From positions 1-64,000 of the forward strand of contig CACYHP010000003.1 of NCBI GenBank assembly GCA_902774295.1: DNA of 64,000 bases, given 5' to 3'. The notes below the pieces were generated by a model. The model made no database searches and had not been told where the DNA came from. It worked only from the letters and a program-made list of their open reading frames with translations. Made by a program: the position numbers and the translations under genes. Positions 55,271 through 64,000 of the stretch are shown here, one piece after another. The first letter of the stretch is position 1. Each line of letters begins with the position of its first letter. This DNA is from an uncultured Bacteroidia bacterium (lineage in GTDB: Bacteria > Bacteroidota > Bacteroidia > Bacteroidales > F082).

Positions 55271-55690
55271 TTATTTTTTATTAAGGTATAATATTGCTTC
55301 AGAATATCCTTCCAAACCTTTACCAACTATAGATTTTACAGCTGCTTCAGCAGTGTATGAATGATGTCTATACTCTTCCCTTTCGTAAATATTCGAAATA
55401 TGAACCTCAACAACAGGAATTCCGATCGCTCTAACAGTGTCGGCCAAAGCTATTGATGTGTGCGCATACCCTCCGGGATTAAACACCACACCATCGAATT
55501 TACCCATTGTCTCCTGCAATTTATCAATCAAAACGCCCTCATGATTCGACTGGAACGTTTCAATATCACAATCCGGAAAACGTTTTTTAACAACCTCAAA
55601 ATATTCGTCAAGTGATTGATTACCATATATTTCTGGCTCTCGCTTGCCGATAAGGTTAAGATTCGGTCCGTTTAAAATCAAAATCTTCAT
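55271..55690 (-). CDS. aroQ: 3-dehydroquinate dehydratase, type II
   Basis: Dehydrates 3-dehydroquinate in the shikimate pathway. 139 residues, dodecameric class. Motifs are ILNGPNLNLIGKREPEIYG (with the catalytic Tyr), QSNHEGVLID, FNPGGYAHTS, EVHISNIYEREEYRHHSY (catalytic His). The start at 55690 is preferred over an ATG two codons upstream. It is the last gene of the leftward run that contains the P-type ATPase, nine bases after that gene. Confidence 0.94.
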   Translation of the reverse strand: MKILILNGPNLNLIGKREPEIYGNQSLDEYFEVVKKRFPDCDIETFQSNHEGVLIDKLQETMGKFDGVVFNPGGYAHTSIALADTVRAIGIPVVEVHISNIYEREEYRHHSYTAEAAVKSIVGKGLEGYSEAILYLNKK

Positions 55691-55699
55691 AATCAAAAA

Positions 55700-58420
55700 C
55701 TATCTTTTTTTCAAAAAACGTATAAGTTCACCAATAATGATAACCGGGCTGGTCCCAATGAAACAAATCAGCCAGTCTTGCCATTTCAGAGGCTCAACGC
55801 TGAACATCTCGCCACCTAAAGTGATTATGGCGAACTGTCCGACGAGAATTATCAGCAATGCGAGCTCAAAACCTCCAAAGGTCTTTGGAAGATTGCGGAA
55901 AGCCGATGTCCCTGTATGATAAGCCTTGGCGTTGAAAAGATTCCAGAACTGCATAAACACAAATATCGTGAACGTCAACGAATGCTCGTAGGTTGTATAG
56001 CTTTTTGCGCCGACGATATTTATATTGAAGAAATTTGACAGATAATCTTTTATAGAGAACTCTGTCAGACAGTTAATCTCAACATGCTTGAAATACTGAA
56101 CAAATCCTAGTAAAACCAGCACAAATATCATTCCCACGATGATTATTGATTTTATCATCGGCTTTGTCAGTATGTGCGCGTCTTTTGAGCGTGGTTTCTC
56201 ATCCATCACTGTCTCTGACGGTGGCAATGATGCCAAGGCGAGCGCCGCGAAGGTATCCATTATCAAGTTAACCCAGAGCATCTGAGTCACAGTGAGAACC
56301 GCATCGGTGCCAAGCAATGCGCCAAGCATCACCACGAGACATGCCGCCACGTTGATTGTCATCTGGAACAGCACAAAACGTTGAATATTCAGATAAAGCG
56401 AGCGTCCCCACATCACTGCGCGGACTATGCTTCTGAATGAATTGTCGAGGATAGTTATGTCGGAGGCTTCTTTCGCCACCGTTGTGCCATCGCCCATTGA
56501 GAGTCCCACTTGAGCCGCTTTCAATGCAGGAGCGTCGTTGGTGCCGTCGCCGGTGACTGCCACCACCTCGCCGTAAGACTGCTGCAGACGCACCAAGCGT
56601 TCCTTGTCCATCGGTCTGGCACGCGACATGATCTTTATTAACGGGATGCGGCGTTTTGCCTCCTCATCGGTAAGCGCCTCAAAATCCTTGCCGGAGATGT
56701 GGTTGAAATCTTTTTGATCGGTCTCTTTCCATAATCCCAGCTGACGGCCAATCTCAATGGCGGTTCCTGGAGTGTCGCCGGTCACTATTTTGACGTCTAT
56801 ACCTGCTCTTAAGCATTTTGCCACAGCATCTGCCACATCTGGACGAATCGGGTCAGCGATGGCTGTAGCCGCAACAAATATGAGATTATCAGCAATGAGA
56901 TTATCAGTTTTCGGGTCAAACGACTGCTCGTTAGGGTCAGCTTCTTTGTATGCCAAGGCAAGCGTTCTCATCGCCTTATCATTATATGCACTTAATTGAT
57001 TTACAATGGTTTCACGATATGGTTCAATATCAACGACACCATCTTTTGTGGCTATTCTGTTACAATGCGCAAGAATAATCTCAGGAGCACCTTTCACATA
57101 AAACATCGGCTTGTTGAATGTCTTCGATTCAACAATCGTAGCCATAAACTTATATTTAGTGGAGAATGGCACCTGATAAAGCAACTTCGTGTCTTCCCTA
57201 TAATCAATATAGTTAACTCCTTGATTATAAAGCCATAACAGAAGTGCACCTTCAGTAGGATTGCCTATCGCCTTAACTTTTTCTTTATCAGTAAAATCGA
57301 GAAAAGCGGTTGTATTGACGGAGATACATTCTTTTAAAACATCATTACATCCGCTATATGACAGTATGTCGTTGACACTCATCTGATTCTGTGTCAACGT
57401 GCCAGTTTTGTCGGTACAAATCACCGTAGCAGCGCCCATAGTCTCACAAGCGTGCAATTTTCTGACTAAGTTGTTGGTTACCAACATCCTACGCATACTC
57501 AGAGCAAGACTTAAGGTGACGCTCATAGGTAATCCTTCCGGAACAGCCACCACAATAATGGCAACCGCAATCATCAATGTATTCAATGCATATTGTGCAA
57601 ATCTAAGCCAGTCGATGCCGTCACCGATGCCATCAACATGAATGAAATACATTATCAAACGTATCACGAAGATCGAAGCGGCGATGATATAGCTCGCATA
57701 GCAAATCACCTGTCCGAGTTTGTCGAGTTGGATATTCAAAGGCGTTTTGACATTGTTGTCAATCTGCGAACCTTTGTAAACCTTGCCCCATTCTGTGGCG
57801 TCTCCTACCCTTTCGATCTGCACGATGCCGTGACCATCAATGACTTTGCTGCCTCGCATAACCCAATTTGAGGGATATGTAGCCTCGTTGTTGAATTCTT
57901 TCTCGTCGATGGTTTTTCGTGCCATCGGCTCGCCTGTAAGATCCGATTCGTTGACTTGCAATGAAAAAGCGTCAAGAAGGATACCGTCAGCCGGCACCTC
58001 ATCGCCTGTTTCAATAATCACGATGTCACCGACGACGATCTCGCGCCGTTGGATGAGTGTGACATTGCCTTCACGAATGACTTTCACGGTTTCCTCATCA
58101 TTAACCTGATTGAGGATGTCGAATTTTTTATTGGCGTTGACTTCGAAGATGAATCCGACGCATGTCGCCAACATTATAGCCACAAAAATTCCAAGCGGCT
58201 CAAACAAAACACTATAGCCTTCATCGGTAGTAAAATATTGATATACAGACACTCCGATGGAAAGCGCGAGGGCAATCAGCAGGATTTGAATAATCGAATC
58301 CTTGAATTTGCCCAGAAACTGATGGAATATCGACTCCTTTTGTGGAGGCGTAAGAATATTAAAGCCGTGCAAAGCACGGCTTTGTTCTACTTGTTTCTTA
58401 TCAAGTCCTTGATACTTCAT
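55700..58420 (-). CDS. P2-type calcium-transporting ATPase
   Basis: A 906-residue ion pump of the SERCA/PMCA-like class. The N-terminus is a cation-ATPase domain (LTPPQKESIFHQFLGKFKDS); the actuator loop is LTGEPMARKT (TGEP where TGES is typical); helix 4 has VAVPEGLPMSVTLSLALSM with the PEGL ion-site motif; the phosphorylation motif is CDKTGTLTQNQM; nucleotide binding FSTKYKFMATIVESK and KGAPEIIL; hinge VTGDGTNDAPALKAA. The C-terminal region has NLIMDTFAALALAS. Calcium is inferred from the PEGL motif. It follows the lipoprotein gene by two bases. Confidence 0.92.
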   Translation of the reverse strand: MKYQGLDKKQVEQSRALHGFNILTPPQKESIFHQFLGKFKDSIIQILLIALALSIGVSVYQYFTTDEGYSVLFEPLGIFVAIMLATCVGFIFEVNANKKFDILNQVNDEETVKVIREGNVTLIQRREIVVGDIVIIETGDEVPADGILLDAFSLQVNESDLTGEPMARKTIDEKEFNNEATYPSNWVMRGSKVIDGHGIVQIERVGDATEWGKVYKGSQIDNNVKTPLNIQLDKLGQVICYASYIIAASIFVIRLIMYFIHVDGIGDGIDWLRFAQYALNTLMIAVAIIVVAVPEGLPMSVTLSLALSMRRMLVTNNLVRKLHACETMGAATVICTDKTGTLTQNQMSVNDILSYSGCNDVLKECISVNTTAFLDFTDKEKVKAIGNPTEGALLLWLYNQGVNYIDYREDTKLLYQVPFSTKYKFMATIVESKTFNKPMFYVKGAPEIILAHCNRIATKDGVVDIEPYRETIVNQLSAYNDKAMRTLALAYKEADPNEQSFDPKTDNLIADNLIFVAATAIADPIRPDVADAVAKCLRAGIDVKIVTGDTPGTAIEIGRQLGLWKETDQKDFNHISGKDFEALTDEEAKRRIPLIKIMSRARPMDKERLVRLQQSYGEVVAVTGDGTNDAPALKAAQVGLSMGDGTTVAKEASDITILDNSFRSIVRAVMWGRSLYLNIQRFVLFQMTINVAACLVVMLGALLGTDAVLTVTQMLWVNLIMDTFAALALASLPPSETVMDEKPRSKDAHILTKPMIKSIIIVGMIFVLVLLGFVQYFKHVEINCLTEFSIKDYLSNFFNINIVGAKSYTTYEHSLTFTIFVFMQFWNLFNAKAYHTGTSAFRNLPKTFGGFELALLIILVGQFAIITLGGEMFSVEPLKWQDWLICFIGTSPVIIIGELIRFLKKR

Positions 58421-58422
58421 TA

Positions 58423-58998
58423 TTAGTTATTTCCGTATTCTTCCAAGGCTTTATAGAAATCGTTCTTGTACTGCTCCTGTTTGAAGTCAATCTTCAACTC
58501 TGTGTCAGCGCTCATAGTCTCAACGACTGTATTCAGAACATCTTCGCCTGAATATTCGATGCAGACATAAACAGCAATCTTACCAGGGGTGAGCTTGCTT
58601 GGCTGAGCGTCCCAGCATGTCACAGGGGTGTTTTTAAGTTTACCTTTGACAACACCAATTGACTGAATTGTACCTTTAGCGATGTTTTTCACGTTATCGC
58701 CATCACGGTGCTGCTGTGTGAACTGGTCAACTGATCTTTGAACGACAGACTCGATCATAGCCTGGATACCGTCACGTGCATTCTGCTCTGCAAAAATACG
58801 TGCTGACTGAATGTCATATTCGCTTTCAGCGATAGTCTGTGCCAGATACTTGAAATTACCTTTTGATGCTGTGCAGTCTGGGCATGGCAGTTCTGAAGGC
58901 TGATTCTGTGGTTTCTGAGCAACTTCCTTGCTTGAGCCGCATGATACTACGAGTAATGAAATCAATGCGATTCCCAAAAGTAAATTGATTTTTTTCAT
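58423..58998 (-). CDS. LPP20-like lipoprotein of unknown function
   Basis: A 191-residue lipoprotein: lipobox LLVVSC (Cys20), then LPCPDCTASKGNFKYLAQTI. The body (IFAEQNARDGIQAMIESVVQ, VKNIAKGTIQSIGVVKGKLK, KIAVYVCIEYSG) has the helix-strand layout of the LPP20/FlgP-like family that includes surface and stator-associated lipoproteins. It ends two bases before the ATPase gene. No function can be assigned. Confidence 0.65.
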   Translation of the reverse strand: MKKINLLLGIALISLLVVSCGSSKEVAQKPQNQPSELPCPDCTASKGNFKYLAQTIAESEYDIQSARIFAEQNARDGIQAMIESVVQRSVDQFTQQHRDGDNVKNIAKGTIQSIGVVKGKLKNTPVTCWDAQPSKLTPGKIAVYVCIEYSGEDVLNTVVETMSADTELKIDFKQEQYKNDFYKALEEYGNN

Positions 58999-59029
58999 GA
59001 TAATTAATTTTTAGTTAATAATTAAACAT

Positions 59030-59962
59030 TTATTTCACATTAAAAAAAGCTTTCTCTTTGACAAATTTTGAGCCGAATCTGAAACGCACTTCCACATAAT
59101 TGTCATCCTGACTGTAGCAATAGTCGGAATTGTAGTTGATAACTATGTTGTCACCAACGTTTTTAACAGTAAATTGTGTGGCGCAGTTCGATGATGTACG
59201 CGGTTTCTGCGATGTTGTAATAGTTTTTCCGTTGTACACCAGCTTGATAGTGAGTTTTCCGGTCGTATTGTCAACAACATCGATGATTATATTGTCATAA
59301 ACACCAATATATCTGTTGATAAGACCTTCAACGGTGAAATATCTCGAATCATCAGTTCCGAGTTCTTTTGAGAGTGCGCCAAGAGCTGTTATGGCATCAT
59401 CAACCTGCTCAACGGTTTCGATGTTATCCAATCCGTCTTCATAACCGGCAATCCTGTCATTAAGTTCTTTCTCATGTTTCTCGTAAGCTGTAACAAGCTC
59501 AACCAAGTCGAAACGTGAAAATGGATATTTCACATACAGATTATAATATTGCTCTCCGGTTTTTTTATTTTTGTAGAGCTCTTGATAAGTCTCGGCCTTT
59601 GTGATGCTCACACCTTGAATTGCAGGCATCTTAGCAATTTTTGACGTCGACTCTATCGACATTGTGGCGTTTGTGCTTGCATTGGTGCCTTCAACAGTCT
59701 TTTGAGTATAAGAATTAACTGTACGTGACACGTTTGTAGCCACTGACGATGCTATATCAGCGCGGACTTTCTGCATGGCGTCAGACTTAGCCTCTTCAAG
59801 TGTCGGTTTATCCGACTGCACGATGATATAGTCTTGTACGCTGCCCTTTCCTACCCATTCAGGTTTTGGACCGCTTTTTTCAACGAGTTTGAATCCTTTC
59901 TTCTGAGCGCATGCACAGAGAGGAAGCACCATCGCTAAAGCTATTATCAATAATTTTCTCAT
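59030..59962 (-). CDS. LPP20-family exported protein
   Basis: A 310-residue exported protein with signal peptide MRKLLIIALAMVLPLCACAQ. LPP20-like core: GPKPEWVGKGSVQDYIIVQS, LEEAKSDAMQKVRADIASSV and YYNLYVKYPFSRFDL. The C-terminal 90 residues are beta-rich. It lies 15 bases after the next upstream gene and 31 before the lipoprotein gene, as part of one leftward run. Confidence 0.68.
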   Translation of the reverse strand: MRKLLIIALAMVLPLCACAQKKGFKLVEKSGPKPEWVGKGSVQDYIIVQSDKPTLEEAKSDAMQKVRADIASSVATNVSRTVNSYTQKTVEGTNASTNATMSIESTSKIAKMPAIQGVSITKAETYQELYKNKKTGEQYYNLYVKYPFSRFDLVELVTAYEKHEKELNDRIAGYEDGLDNIETVEQVDDAITALGALSKELGTDDSRYFTVEGLINRYIGVYDNIIIDVVDNTTGKLTIKLVYNGKTITTSQKPRTSSNCATQFTVKNVGDNIVINYNSDYCYSQDDNYVEVRFRFGSKFVKEKAFFNVK

Positions 59963-59977
59963 TTTTACTAATTTTTA

Positions 59978-60526
59978 TTATTCAAAAATCCATGATACGT
60001 TAGGCTCGGCGTTCTCTTCTGAAGACTCCACTTCGTCAATTGCCTTGTAATATTCAACAGCTCTCTTTTTACCAACGTTGATGAGTTTCTTCAACTTAGG
60101 ATCACGTGCCTTGATTGATTTGATGGCTTTGGAGACAGCCTTGTTGTCGTTGTCATCCATAGCTTTTTTGGTAATCATCTCCTGAGCGAGAATAACCTTA
60201 TTGACATTGTCAACGAAATAGAAAGACACTTCAACTTCTGCCATATATTGAGGCGGTATTGATGTTGTCACATTTTTCGAAAGAATTGTGACTGATGTCA
60301 CGATAAGGAAGCGGCTATCATTTGTTGTTGAACCGAGTCCATTAAGTGTAACTGCCTGATTTACATTGTTATACAACACTGTAAGAGCATCACCTTTAAC
60401 TTCATTGTTTTTTGGCATAAGCACGCGAACAGGGATCATCTGCTCAAAAGTCATCTCATTTTGGGCGCAGAGCAATCCTGAAATTGCGCAAAGCACTGCC
60501 AACATTAAGAATTTAATCTTTTTCAT
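59978..60526 (-). CDS. Small exported protein of unknown function
   Basis: A 182-residue exported protein with signal peptide MKKIKFLMLAVLCAISGLLC. The start at 60526 avoids an ATG three codons upstream that lacks the charged signal start. The body is beta-rich with FLIVTSVTILSKNVTTSIPP and a helical C-terminus ending EPNVSWIFE. It resembles no family I can name. It sits 15 bases from both neighbours. Confidence 0.6.
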   Translation of the reverse strand: MKKIKFLMLAVLCAISGLLCAQNEMTFEQMIPVRVLMPKNNEVKGDALTVLYNNVNQAVTLNGLGSTTNDSRFLIVTSVTILSKNVTTSIPPQYMAEVEVSFYFVDNVNKVILAQEMITKKAMDDNDNKAVSKAIKSIKARDPKLKKLINVGKKRAVEYYKAIDEVESSEENAEPNVSWIFE

Positions 60527-60541
60527 ATCAGTCAATTTTAA

Positions 60542-61975
60542 TTACAGAACCAACCAAACCTCACTTGGACCGCGCATATAAATCGTGCCATCGATATTAT
60601 AGTTGTTTCTTAAATATGTTTGCAAACCTTGTAAATAATCTTGAGTATCGACACGTTGGATCGCTCCACGACGACCTGTTCTTGTCAAAGGAATCATCAC
60701 CTGATTGAATGTCAAGACGTTAGGTGTGATAACTCTTGTTGGATTGTTATCGACAGTATTGTCCTGCAGCCAATAGTAGATGATATCGCCGAGAGTTGTC
60801 TGTTCGCCTTCGAAAGCGAAAGTGGTTCTCAGGAAGTCATAGTCAGAATTATCTGTTCTCTTGATTTTAACAGTGATTTGGCGACCGTTGTTCGACATAT
60901 CGACGAACTCATCCTGGAGTTTCTTGCAGAAGGCGTCCATGTGGTTAAGCACTGCCTCTTCAAGCAAAGTGTTGATTGTAGCTGAGTTAGATGGTTTTCC
61001 ATCGCCATGAGCGTGTGCGATTTCTCTTGCGTTTGCGCTCACATCCACAGCTCTCATATTGAAAGAGACGTAGCGTCCCATGCCTTTTTCCATCACTTCG
61101 AAGTCAAGGTCAACGATGAAATCGACGTTTGCAGTACGTTTGATGCGGTCGATTGGCGATTCGGCGATAGCGCCGTCAAGGCCGTAGTCATCACTTATCA
61201 AAGCATTCTCCTGATCTTCCTGTTTCAAGCTCTTCAGAAGGAATTCAAGACTTTGTACTTCAAAGCCTTTGTTCTTGAAAATCTCGTTGAGTGAAGCTAT
61301 CACGAGACGAAGGTCGCGGCTGTCTTCTCTACCAAAGATATCGTAGTTGACGATGGTCTGGACGTTGCCGTTCTCGTCTTTCCATTTCTGGACATAACCC
61401 ATCTCGTTGCAATACACGTCGGAAGGCACCACCATCAGCATTGGTTTTGCATATTTACCAGCATCGGTGTTTTTGACTTTCTCAGCATAGCCTTTGTCCT
61501 GCATGTATTTCGTAAGTTCATCGTAAAGCACTTGAACATCAACGGAAACGGTATAGACCTTACCGTTTTTCACTGATTGTGGGTTGCCGGTCTTATTGAT
61601 GAAACGATGATATTGTCCGCCCGGGTTTTTCTTGGTCGGAAGAGCCAAGAAACTCTCGAAGAACTCGATGTTATTCTCAGCTGTGGTGTAAGACACGATA
61701 GCCGGAGTTGCTTTTGTGTTGCCAGATGCAGTGATTCCGCGGAAAAGGCATGCGGCCACAGCGTCACGCTTAGCCATCTCGACGCCTTCTGTAGCATCTT
61801 TGGCTGTTGTGGTCACAGTGAACACTTTTGTGCCATCCTGACCGACTCCGATGTATTGAACCTCGTACTGTTGGTCAAGGATTGAGCGTTTTTCGTTGTT
61901 TTTCTGCGCAAACATGGTGCTTGCCATCATAAGCAAAGCGACCATTGGCATCATTTTTAGTCTTAAACTTTTCAT
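60542..61975 (-). CDS. Exported protein, DUF6175-like, copy A1
   Basis: A 477-residue exported protein with signal peptide MKSLRLKMMPMVALLMMAST ending MFAQ. The start at 61975 follows a -7 box at 61994-62001. The N-terminal 180 residues have an LPP20-like pattern (AKDATEGVEMAKRDAVAACL). The C-terminal domain (MLMVVPSDVYCNEMGYVQKW, DIFGREDSRDLRLVI, ANVDFIVDLDFEV, IIYYWLQDNTVDNNPTRVIT, GTIYMRGPSEVWLVL) is closely similar to the right-most gene at 63118. Similar proteins in Bacteroidetes are listed, from memory, as DUF6175; the function is unknown. Confidence 0.72.
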   Translation of the reverse strand: MKSLRLKMMPMVALLMMASTMFAQKNNEKRSILDQQYEVQYIGVGQDGTKVFTVTTTAKDATEGVEMAKRDAVAACLFRGITASGNTKATPAIVSYTTAENNIEFFESFLALPTKKNPGGQYHRFINKTGNPQSVKNGKVYTVSVDVQVLYDELTKYMQDKGYAEKVKNTDAGKYAKPMLMVVPSDVYCNEMGYVQKWKDENGNVQTIVNYDIFGREDSRDLRLVIASLNEIFKNKGFEVQSLEFLLKSLKQEDQENALISDDYGLDGAIAESPIDRIKRTANVDFIVDLDFEVMEKGMGRYVSFNMRAVDVSANAREIAHAHGDGKPSNSATINTLLEEAVLNHMDAFCKKLQDEFVDMSNNGRQITVKIKRTDNSDYDFLRTTFAFEGEQTTLGDIIYYWLQDNTVDNNPTRVITPNVLTFNQVMIPLTRTGRRGAIQRVDTQDYLQGLQTYLRNNYNIDGTIYMRGPSEVWLVL

Positions 61976-61993
61976 ATTGAAAATATTAACATG

Positions 61994-62001
61994 CAAAAAT
62001 A
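61994..62001 (-). promoter_or_regulatory. -7 box of copy A1
   Basis: TATTTTTG on the leftward strand, 19 bases before the ATG at 61975. It gives the downstream half of the run its own promoter and excludes the in-frame ATG at 62047. Confidence 0.5.
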
Positions 62002-62024
62002 CAATTTTTTTATTCCCAAATATA

Positions 62025-62609
62025 TTATTTCCAATTAATTGGGACATTTCTCATCTCTATCTTGCAATCGCCGATGTCGAATTTCATCACAGGCATGATT
62101 TGCGTTTTCGCCGGATTGATTTTTTCAGGCACATCAATAGTTGCCTTAATAGGGATATCTGTCAAAGCGTTGTAATCTGTTGACGACCAGCTTCTTGCGT
62201 GTTCGTTACCCTCGCAGTCGTATGCAAGGAAATGTCCGCCCACATACATGTGCTTGTTGACATCATGGTTGGTGAATTTTATGGTCAGTTTCACCAGTTG
62301 GCTTGATTTACTGCCGATGAGGGATACGAATTCAACATCGAGCCATTCGTCGCATGGGTTTGAAATTGTCAACTCGCTTGCCGGTGCCTGTGCTGATTTC
62401 TGTTTAGGTTCGGCTTTAGGAGTTGCAGGTTCTTCCTTCACTTCCTGTTCGGCATTTTTCTTGCGGTTAATTTTCTTCTCTCTCTTTGTAGTATTGTCTC
62501 TTGCTTTAAGAGTTTGCTGCTCAAACGGGTCGTTTGATTGAGCCACAGCTATTTCCGGAATCACCGAAATAAACATAAAAGCGATTAAAAAGTAGATTAA
62601 TTTCTTCAT
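62025..62609 (-). CDS. Exported protein of unknown function, copy B1
   Basis: A 194-residue exported protein. Signal peptide MKKLIYFLIAFMFISVIPEI (start at 62609; ATG two codons upstream possible), then a charged Lys/Glu linker (KREKKINRKKNAEQEVKEEP) and a C-terminal beta domain of about 115 residues: ISNPCDEWLDVEFVSLIGSK to KIEMRNVPINWK. The domain is clearly paralogous to that of the next gene (B2). Function unknown. Confidence 0.65.
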   Translation of the reverse strand: MKKLIYFLIAFMFISVIPEIAVAQSNDPFEQQTLKARDNTTKREKKINRKKNAEQEVKEEPATPKAEPKQKSAQAPASELTISNPCDEWLDVEFVSLIGSKSSQLVKLTIKFTNHDVNKHMYVGGHFLAYDCEGNEHARSWSSTDYNALTDIPIKATIDVPEKINPAKTQIMPVMKFDIGDCKIEMRNVPINWK

Positions 62610-62629
62610 ATTCATTGATTTTTAAATGA

Positions 62630-63094
62630 TCACTTATCTTCTTTCTTTATTTTTTTCCAAATAATCGGGACATTTCTCATCTCAATATGGCAGTCGTCAA
62701 TATCGAAAGCTATAACAGCCATCTTCTTCACCTTTTTCGGCACGACTTTACCTGGAACATCAATCGAAAAATTGACTTTTTTATCAGTCAGAGCTTTATA
62801 TTCATTACTTCTTGAAGTATTATGTGCAACTCCTTCTGTATCATAAGCCATGAAGTTTCTGACGCGAATATCTTTGTTTACATTTCTGTTGATGAACCTG
62901 CAATTAAGCACCATTGTCTGCTCGTCTTTGTCGCCAATCAACGAGATGAGCTTGAAATCAATTTCCTCACCTTCACAAGGGTTGCTTATCTCAATATCTT
63001 TGTTGGAATATTTGATTTTCTGATAAATTGTGCCACATGAAGAAAGCAGCATCAGAATCATCGTAAGACTTAATAGTAAAGATATTTTTCTCAT
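62630..63094 (-). CDS. Lipoprotein of unknown function, copy B2
   Basis: A 154-residue lipoprotein with lipobox LMLLSSC (Cys20). Beta domain EISNPCEGEEIDFKLISLIG, RFINRNVNKDIRVRNFMAYD, HIEMRNVPIIWK is paralogous to copy B1 but lacks its charged linker. It lies 20 bases upstream of B1 and 23 after the right-most gene. Probably the result of tandem duplication. Confidence 0.68.
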   Translation of the reverse strand: MRKISLLLSLTMILMLLSSCGTIYQKIKYSNKDIEISNPCEGEEIDFKLISLIGDKDEQTMVLNCRFINRNVNKDIRVRNFMAYDTEGVAHNTSRSNEYKALTDKKVNFSIDVPGKVVPKKVKKMAVIAFDIDDCHIEMRNVPIIWKKIKKEDK

Positions 63095-63117
63095 ATAACT
63101 CGTTTAATATCAATCAA

Positions 63118-64000
63118 TTAAATTATCAACCAAGCTTCACCTGGACCTCTCATATAAATAGTACTTTCAATATTATAATTATCGAGGAGGAACTCCTGAA
63201 GCTGTGTCACATATTCATTTGAATCGAGGCGGCGAACCGCACCTTTTTTGTTCACCGTTATCATCGGAATCATCACCTGGTTGAATGTCAACACGTTAGG
63301 TGTAATATTTCTTGTAGGGTTATTGTCGATGGTGTTGTCCTGAAGCCAATAGTAGATGATATCGCAAAGTTTCTCCATCTTGCCTTCATACAAGAATTTC
63401 GAACGCTGGAAATCGTAGTCTGAATTATCGGTCTTCTTGATTTTCACGGTTACACGATGACCGTCTGTTTCCATTTTCTTATATTGGCGCTGAATCGCGT
63501 CGCAGAAATCGTCGACATAGTTGATGACCGCCTCTTCGAGCAATGTGTTGACTGTTAAAACCCTTGATGGGCGTCCGTCGCCATAGGCATGAGCTATTTC
63601 CACTGCGTTTGAGCAAGGATCAACGGCACGCATATTGAAAGCGACATATCTATAGTCATCGATTTCATAAAGTGCGAAGTCGAGGTCAACGATAAAATCG
63701 ACGTTTGATGCACGTTTTATGCGGTCGAGCGGCGATTCCTTGACAGTGCCCGCCAAGCCGTAATCCTCGCCAATAAAGGCGTTTTCGTCATTTTCGCTAT
63801 TCAAACTCTTGAGGAGGAATTCAAGGCTTATCGTCTCAAATCCTCGTGAAGCAAAAATATCGTTTAGCGATGATATCACCAAACGCAGGTCGCGGCTGTC
63901 CTCTCTTCCAAAGATGTTGTAATCAGATATTGTCTGCACCTTGCCATTCTCGTCTTTCCACTTCTGAACGAAGTCCATCTCGGTGCAGTAAACATCAGCC
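63118..64000 (-). CDS. Exported protein, DUF6175-like, copy A2 (partial at edge)
   Basis: The 5' part lies beyond the right edge of the window. The frame stays open through the last bases (codons reading ADVYCTEMDF), which align with SDVYCNEMGY in copy A1, so the ATG at 63978 is internal. The visible 294 codons match the C-terminal domain of A1 throughout (IFGREDSRDLRLVISSL, LEFLLKSL, LDRIKRASNVDFIVDLDF, IIYYWLQDNTIDNNPTRNIT, STIYMRGPGEAWLII). First visible gene of the A2-B2-B1-A1 run. Confidence 0.72.
   Translation of the reverse strand, partial: ADVYCTEMDFVQKWKDENGKVQTISDYNIFGREDSRDLRLVISSLNDIFASRGFETISLEFLLKSLNSENDENAFIGEDYGLAGTVKESPLDRIKRASNVDFIVDLDFALYEIDDYRYVAFNMRAVDPCSNAVEIAHAYGDGRPSRVLTVNTLLEEAVINYVDDFCDAIQRQYKKMETDGHRVTVKIKKTDNSDYDFQRSKFLYEGKMEKLCDIIYYWLQDNTIDNNPTRNITPNVLTFNQVMIPMITVNKKGAVRRLDSNEYVTQLQEFLLDNYNIESTIYMRGPGEAWLII

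Follow-up and report, generated by a model that had tools for sequence, protein, structure and literature searches.

The run of genes for exported proteins at the right-hand end of the window, the 64,000-nucleotide stretch of DNA analysed here (G000:C3:1-64000, part of a 2.38-Mb Bacteroidales genome), is best explained as the form, enlarged and specific to this lineage, of an old outer-membrane cassette of the Bacteroidota. The genes lie on the minus strand in the order A2-B2-B1-A1-P3-P2-P1, spaced by 15 to 49 bp, and are followed by the genes for a calcium-type P-type ATPase and AroQ. By analogy with relatives of its folds, the best reading of the cassette is a periplasmic scaffold anchored to the outer membrane, probably ring-forming, to which we assign a probability of roughly 55%. 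All of the open reading frames (ORFs) named in a first-pass annotation of this DNA were present on the minus strand, at the positions given below. Within the named collection, the closest relatives of the host genome were rumen and gut metagenome-assembled genomes such as RUG079 and UBA1173, followed by Candidatus Limimorpha.

Conservation of the cassette across the Bacteroidota

Genome contigs were scanned with an alignment of A, which identified 79 loci from among the 500 or more relatives that the collection contains, and co-occurrence was scored in a sample of 295 Bacteroidales genomes. Dozens of loci, from the Bacteroidales to the Saprospiraceae and Flavobacteriales, shared the order c4-AN-DUF6175-P3-P2/P1. 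The A proteins of the window are fusions of AN and DUF6175, which in most of the 79 loci are encoded side by side as two genes, with P3 next and then P2 and P1 in either order. DUF6175 was found in 66 of the 295 genomes and P3 in 63, with both present in 60 (Fisher P = 1e-51), and c4 was found in 54, 48 of which also carried DUF6175 (Fisher P = 2e-33); these P values overstate the independent evidence because the 295 genomes share ancestry. DUF6175 lay directly upstream of P3 on the same strand in 58 of the 59 genomes in which both were mapped, with a median gap of 33 bp. The c4 gene preceded the cassette in 45 of the 79 loci and encodes a protein of approximately 550 residues, consisting of an exported domain and a C-terminal outer-membrane beta-barrel (PF13505, 3.9e-6) whose barrel region spans about 150 residues.

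Gene fusions were also found. In other Bacteroidota classes, a protein carrying both AN and DUF6175 adjoins an LPP20 protein with a P3-like C-terminal part, and this single chain ties P3 to its LPP20 partner. Both the LPP20 part of the fusion and the neighbouring DUF6175 scored above the Pfam cut-off, and one such locus (L198) additionally contained a c4 gene with an outer-membrane protein (OMP) barrel match. P3 was fused to B at L038:7949 and at L083, the latter read by eye. The gene fusions and a gene order that is fixed over great divergence provide strong evidence of joint function, and it is very probable that A, P3, P2, and P1 cooperate at the envelope. This supports the proposal, made from the window alone, that the products of the run work together there, since these four components are kept together across the Bacteroidota, and for them the case is stronger than was first put.

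Two additional exported families were observed beside the cassette. A lineage-specific protein of approximately 217 amino acids (aa), c20, replaces c4 between pepE and the cassette at L071, L072, L086, L092, L093, L096, and L097. A second family, c24, reaches 900 residues, includes a stretch that looked by eye like a transglutaminase, and lies beside the cassette in five loci (L073:4817-7444, L074:4808-7435, L077, L085, and L088).

Family and fold assignments of the core proteins

Both A proteins belong to DUF6175 (PF19672; curated cut-off, 23 bits). A1 (60542..61975; 477 aa) scored 237.2 bits (2.7e-70), and A2 (63118..64000 in the window) scored 192 bits (1.6e-56 for its in-window part); the two are 56% identical over 473 aa. 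The A1 start is likely at 61975, with the longest ORF extending to 62047. The sequence past the right edge, which the first-pass annotation had singled out for checking, showed that A2 is cut only by the window, as its complete ORF occupies 63118-64542 (474 aa) and is present at full length in L001. As read by eye, A1, A2, B1, P3, and P2 have signal peptidase I signal peptides, and B2 and P1 have lipoboxes. A DUF6175-LpoB/CsgG relationship at the sequence level was considered and rejected (hhalign probability of about 1% or less). DUF6175 was named in no paper of the literature searched. A third, short-form DUF6175 gene was observed elsewhere in three relatives (G363:C2:279440-280267, G365:C8:108538-109395, and G368:C12:7471-8340).

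The structure predicted for P3 (59978..60526; 182 aa; model m639e6ecf2ff7) had a predicted local distance difference test score (pLDDT) of 89 and a predicted template modelling score (pTM) of 0.79, and a Foldseek search of the PDB returned 68 matches at E<=0.001, most of them with a probability of 1.00. These included CC_3750, PelC, HpaA, an Acinetobacter minor lipoprotein, CsgG, XCC0632, LptE, and an LPHT-ring chain. Judged by its predicted alpha/beta fold, P3 therefore falls in the PelC/CsgG/LptE/PqiC group. At the sequence level, P3 stripped of its signal peptide gave hhalign probabilities of about 1% or less against the LpoB and CsgG profiles, and profile searches of the PDB with A, P2, P3, and B yielded no credible match. 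A tandem duplication of P3, in which the first copy has a long C-terminal extension, was observed at L075:11570-13150 and L080:11828-13466.

The first-pass annotation had described two of the exported proteins between A1 and the ATPase as LPP20-like, a description that holds for P1 and P2 in profile-profile comparisons and not for P3. When compared with aligned LPP20 proteins of the Bacteroidota, P1 (58423..58998; 191 aa) reached a probability of 97.2% (E 2.8e-11) and P2 (59030..59962; 310 aa) reached 96.6% (E 6e-10), and the two matched each other at 94%, or at 78% without their signal peptides. The sole PDB match of the P1 family profile was a weak one to Lpp20 (5ok8; E 0.029), and 14 of 27 members of the family matched PF02169 at E<=0.1, the best at 3.7e-4. 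A PF02169 search of this genome and of the window's proteins gave no match above the curated cut-off, P1 and P2 included, but its control gave no match either, and the result is not taken as absence. P1 is a predicted lipoprotein with the lipobox VVSC (within LLVVSC), the cysteine of which is conserved in the family, and P2 has a signal peptide I by eye. The literature searched contained nothing relevant on LPP20 in the Bacteroidetes. No flagellar genes were seen near P1 or P2; no genome-wide flagellar search was made. In some relatives, an exported, weakly P1-like protein of approximately 400 residues, c21, is encoded between P1 and the ATPase (L057:13630-14844, L060:13677-14843, L061:13723-14889, L066:12370-13626, and L068:13534-14796).

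The B family and the origin of the A-B-B-A order

B2 (62630..63094; 154 aa) is a predicted lipoprotein with the lipobox LSSC that scored above the cut-off of no curated family, and B1 (62025..62609; 194 aa) is an exported protein in which a low-complexity linker precedes the B domain. The two are 50% identical over the 117 aa of this shared domain (E 8e-30). Weak matches of B to ETRAMP, T4 Y03C, and SAR2788 in Pfam and NCBIfam were disregarded because they fell below the cut-offs and covered short or low-complexity segments. Profile comparison after removal of the signal peptides detected no kinship between A and B, which bears out the earlier view of them as unrelated exported families. In a first profile comparison A, B, P3, and c4 had seemed to be related, but this was an artefact of the signal peptides and vanished once these were removed.

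The run had been interpreted as a symmetric duplication, A-B-B-A. The paralogy of A1 with A2 and of B1 with B2 was confirmed, as was the order, whereas a single symmetric event was not supported. Both A copies and both B copies are co-oriented, so that only the gene order is symmetric and there is no inverted repeat. In the A tree, the A2 copies (9 rows; support 100/100) form their own clade, separated from the A1 copies by a long stem, and the duplication therefore predates the group of carrier genomes. In the sister genome JAKSNA, the A1 operon (L069) lacks B, and A2-B2-B1 is on a separate contig (L070). In five genomes the operon begins pepE-B1-A1, without A2 and B2, neither of which was found elsewhere in whole-genome searches of the five. 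Across 16 related genomes, A2 and B2 were jointly present in 8 and jointly absent in 8, and the pair therefore behaves as a unit. The five genomes whose operon begins pepE-B1-A1 occupy two positions in the A1 tree (L058/L059 and L062/L063/L065), which suggests that the A2-B2 pair was lost separately at least twice. From these trees and gene contents, the most fitting reading of the A-B-B-A order is that an A2-B2(-B1) block was set before A1-P3-P2-P1, with no symmetric copying event.

The B family was found in only 8 of the 295 Bacteroidales genomes, 4 of them without DUF6175, versus 66 for DUF6175 itself, and in the Limimorpha group B is located apart from A. B is accessory to the cassette. 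The first-pass annotation had held that relatives with scattered A and B genes would speak against a joint role; such scattering was found in part for B and was not found for A-P3-P2-P1.

A possible outer-membrane assembly and its alternatives

In the scaffold reading, the cassette core would comprise A, P3 with its PelC/CsgG-type fold, and the LPP20-type P2 and P1, normally with the c4 barrel encoded first, and all of the products would be exported. The lipoprotein P1, together with c4 where this is present, would tether the assembly to the outer membrane on its inner face. A ring or scaffold in the periplasm would be built by oligomers of P1/P2 and P3, whose fold relatives FlgP, FlgT, PelC, PqiC, and CsgG form rings. 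A would be a core subunit bound to P3, and B an optional partner that may pair with A by direct contact, with A2-B2 as an extra variant of this pair that can be gained or lost separately. We infer the complex, its ring shape, its orientation, and the A-B contact, and take the gene content, order, co-occurrence, paralogy, and domain and fold resemblances directly from the data above. Concentric rings are formed by FlgP, in whose family ring formation has been tied to an insert shared with FlgT; FlgT, Lpp20, and FlgP have an SHS2-like fold in common (PMC12222027). PqiC forms octamers and PelC forms dodecamers (PMC10897342), and PelC is a ring of twelve lipoproteins that acts with the PelB barrel in the PelBC export complex (PMC12141448).

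Several results weigh against this scaffold. A c4 barrel gene is missing from this locus in the genus of the window, and the one homologue of c4 that the host genome yielded (G000:C1:658313-659983, equivalent to L133:8313-9983) is diverged (E 9e-32) and has no evident barrel match. The predicted structure of A1 (m01276d4dfe44; pLDDT 79, pTM 0.59) had no significant Foldseek match in the PDB, leaving the DUF6175 fold unplaced; its best fold-level lead was PelC (5t0z_D), at a template modelling score (TM-score, TMt) of 0.59 and a nonsignificant E of 0.64. Alignment of the AN profile with that of LPP20 gave a probability of 0.5%, which is no match. The TM-scores of the P3 matches were modest (TMt 0.26-0.59) and indicate resemblance at the level of the fold only, and the fold group of P3 includes members that are not known to form rings, such as LptE.

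A more specific form of the scaffold reading is a previously undescribed ring machine at the outer membrane of Bacteroidota, with the c4 barrel as its anchor, FlgP- and PelC-like ring subunits, and a DUF6175 core, performing a job that has nothing to do with flagella or known exporters and in which the genus's two A-B pairs would be alternatives that may be swappable. We offer this as a tentative possibility.

Export of a polymer or protein, with the c4 barrel as the pore and P3 as a PelC/CsgG-like periplasmic gate, appears unlikely. PelC and CsgG are among the fold matches of P3, the partnership of the PelC ring with PelB cited above is a precedent, and c4 does end in an OMP barrel. However, the c4 barrel region is only as large as a small barrel, and 18 of the 66 DUF6175 genomes lack c4, as does the locus of the window's lineage. 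Among the genes that recurred beside the cassette in the 79 loci, none encoded a polymerase or glycosyltransferase or was an obvious candidate for cargo.

A complex that handles lipid or lipopolysaccharide at the outer membrane, in which P3 would be LptE- or PqiC-like, is quite unlikely. LptE, XCC0632, and other PqiC-type structures do match P3 at E<=3e-4, but those systems contain nothing that corresponds to the LPP20 and DUF6175 partners, and no MCE, LptD, or ABC transporter cluster recurred among the neighbours, most of the flanking clusters being unannotated.

We regard as similarly doubtful an accessory ring of the gliding/type IX secretion apparatus, proposed by analogy with flagellar FlgO/FlgP/FlgT. 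The LPP20-like to P3-like order within the single chain of the other classes parallels FlgT, and the diverged c4 homologue of the host genome lies directly behind gldE and gldD. The cassette itself, however, is missing from two genomes of the same genus (G201 and G286) and from most of the 295 genomes. The homologue behind gldE and gldD contains two AKIGTKEG repeats, and the same arrangement was observed in G101 (L134).

It is very unlikely that the run is a co-regulated but functionally mixed set of exported proteins. B is present variably and can lie apart from A, yet order and adjacency are otherwise fixed over great divergence, and AN-DUF6175, LPP20-P3, and P3-B gene fusions occur.

Transcription unit and neighbouring genes

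The first-pass annotation had described the exported genes as a run with short gaps on one strand; this was borne out, and the run resembles one transcription unit. The gaps are 75 bp between pepE and A2, 23 bp between A2 and B2, 20 bp between B2 and B1, 49 bp between B1 and A1, 15 bp between A1 and P3, 15 bp between P3 and P2, 31 bp between P2 and P1, 2 bp between P1 and the ATPase, and 9 bp between the ATPase and aroQ. No overlap of A1 with B1 is required because A1 probably starts at 61975 and not at 62047. The pepE gene lies upstream of A2 on the same strand, in the next 16 kb (L001). A Bacteroidota-type promoter motif, TTG-N-TATATTTG, is present at 64604-64572 in the pepE-A2 gap, just outside the window; it was the sole intergenic match to the promoter pattern on the minus strand between 54000 and 66000, and a motif was found in the corresponding gap in 7 of 9 relatives checked. 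No terminator-like sites were found on the minus strand within the gaps from A2 to aroQ. Promoters or terminators separating the genes, which had been named as evidence that would count against the proposal, were thus not detected inside the run. Given the tight gaps, the motif before A2, and the lack of terminator-like sites, a single transcript from A2 to aroQ is likely on sequence grounds.

The two genes that follow P1 are where the first-pass annotation placed them. The ATPase (55700..58420, minus strand), which starts 2 bp after the P1 stop, is a PMCA-type calcium ATPase that exceeded the TIGR01517 equivalog cut-off (642.9 bits versus 507), and aroQ (55271..55690, minus strand) encodes a type II 3-dehydroquinate dehydratase (TIGR01088, 170.8 bits; cut-off, 169.85); both are positional neighbours of the cassette. 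Of the 79 loci, 23 have the ATPase behind the cassette, and every one of these belongs to the window's lineage or its near relatives; in the other 56, some of which are truncated by contig ends, it is not nearby. In G201 and G286, the whole cassette is missing, and pepE and the ATPase (61-62% identical) are kept close together at the corresponding place. The cassette therefore lies between two backbone genes, and the ATPase is independent of it. Despite the 2-bp gap, the idea that the run partners the ATPase, for example via Ca2+ pumped to the periplasm, is thus highly improbable, and a general link between cassette and ATPase is largely refuted.

Significance and comparison with known systems

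The cassette is carried by about a fifth of the sampled Bacteroidales species, and no published description of it was found in the literature searched. It is a widespread Bacteroidota envelope module that is built from known fold types in a combination for which we found no description. If it does form a ring at the outer membrane, parts of the FlgP/FlgT and PelC/CsgG types would have been reused for another purpose in a phylum that is important in guts, rumen, and sediments, and DUF6175 and several unnamed families would gain a role open to testing. Ready-made comparisons are provided by the lineage that has two A-B pairs and by its natural losses.

P3 resembles PelC, PqiC, LptE, and CsgG in its predicted fold (E 1e-5 to 3e-4) and differs from them in having a signal peptide I and no lipobox, in its neighbours, and in showing no sequence similarity to the LpoB or CsgG profiles. 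A likeness to the Vibrio flagellar H/T ring lies in the match of P3 to a 352-residue LPHT-ring chain (8z5n_0; TM-score 0.26-0.47), which we take to be FlgT, and in the order of the fused cassette proteins, LPP20-like and then P3-like. Unlike in FlgT, the cassette domains are mostly separate genes, and no similarity between A and FlgT could be detected. The middle domain of FlgT resembles TolB, and a candidate assignment of A as FlgT-like, with an LPP20-like N domain and a TolB-like domain, was dropped because of the mismatch between AN and LPP20 and the lack of a significant PDB match; AN did not prove equivalent to the LPP20-like N domain of FlgT. A1 and A2 are members of PF19672 and, unlike the plain family, are fused to AN and duplicated. 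Relative to the LPP20/FlgP family (PF02169; Helicobacter pylori Lpp20 and Campylobacter FlgP), P1 and P2 of the window do not pass the curated cut-off that the cassette LPP20 proteins of other classes pass, and they resemble this family in their profiles, P1 also in being a predicted lipoprotein.

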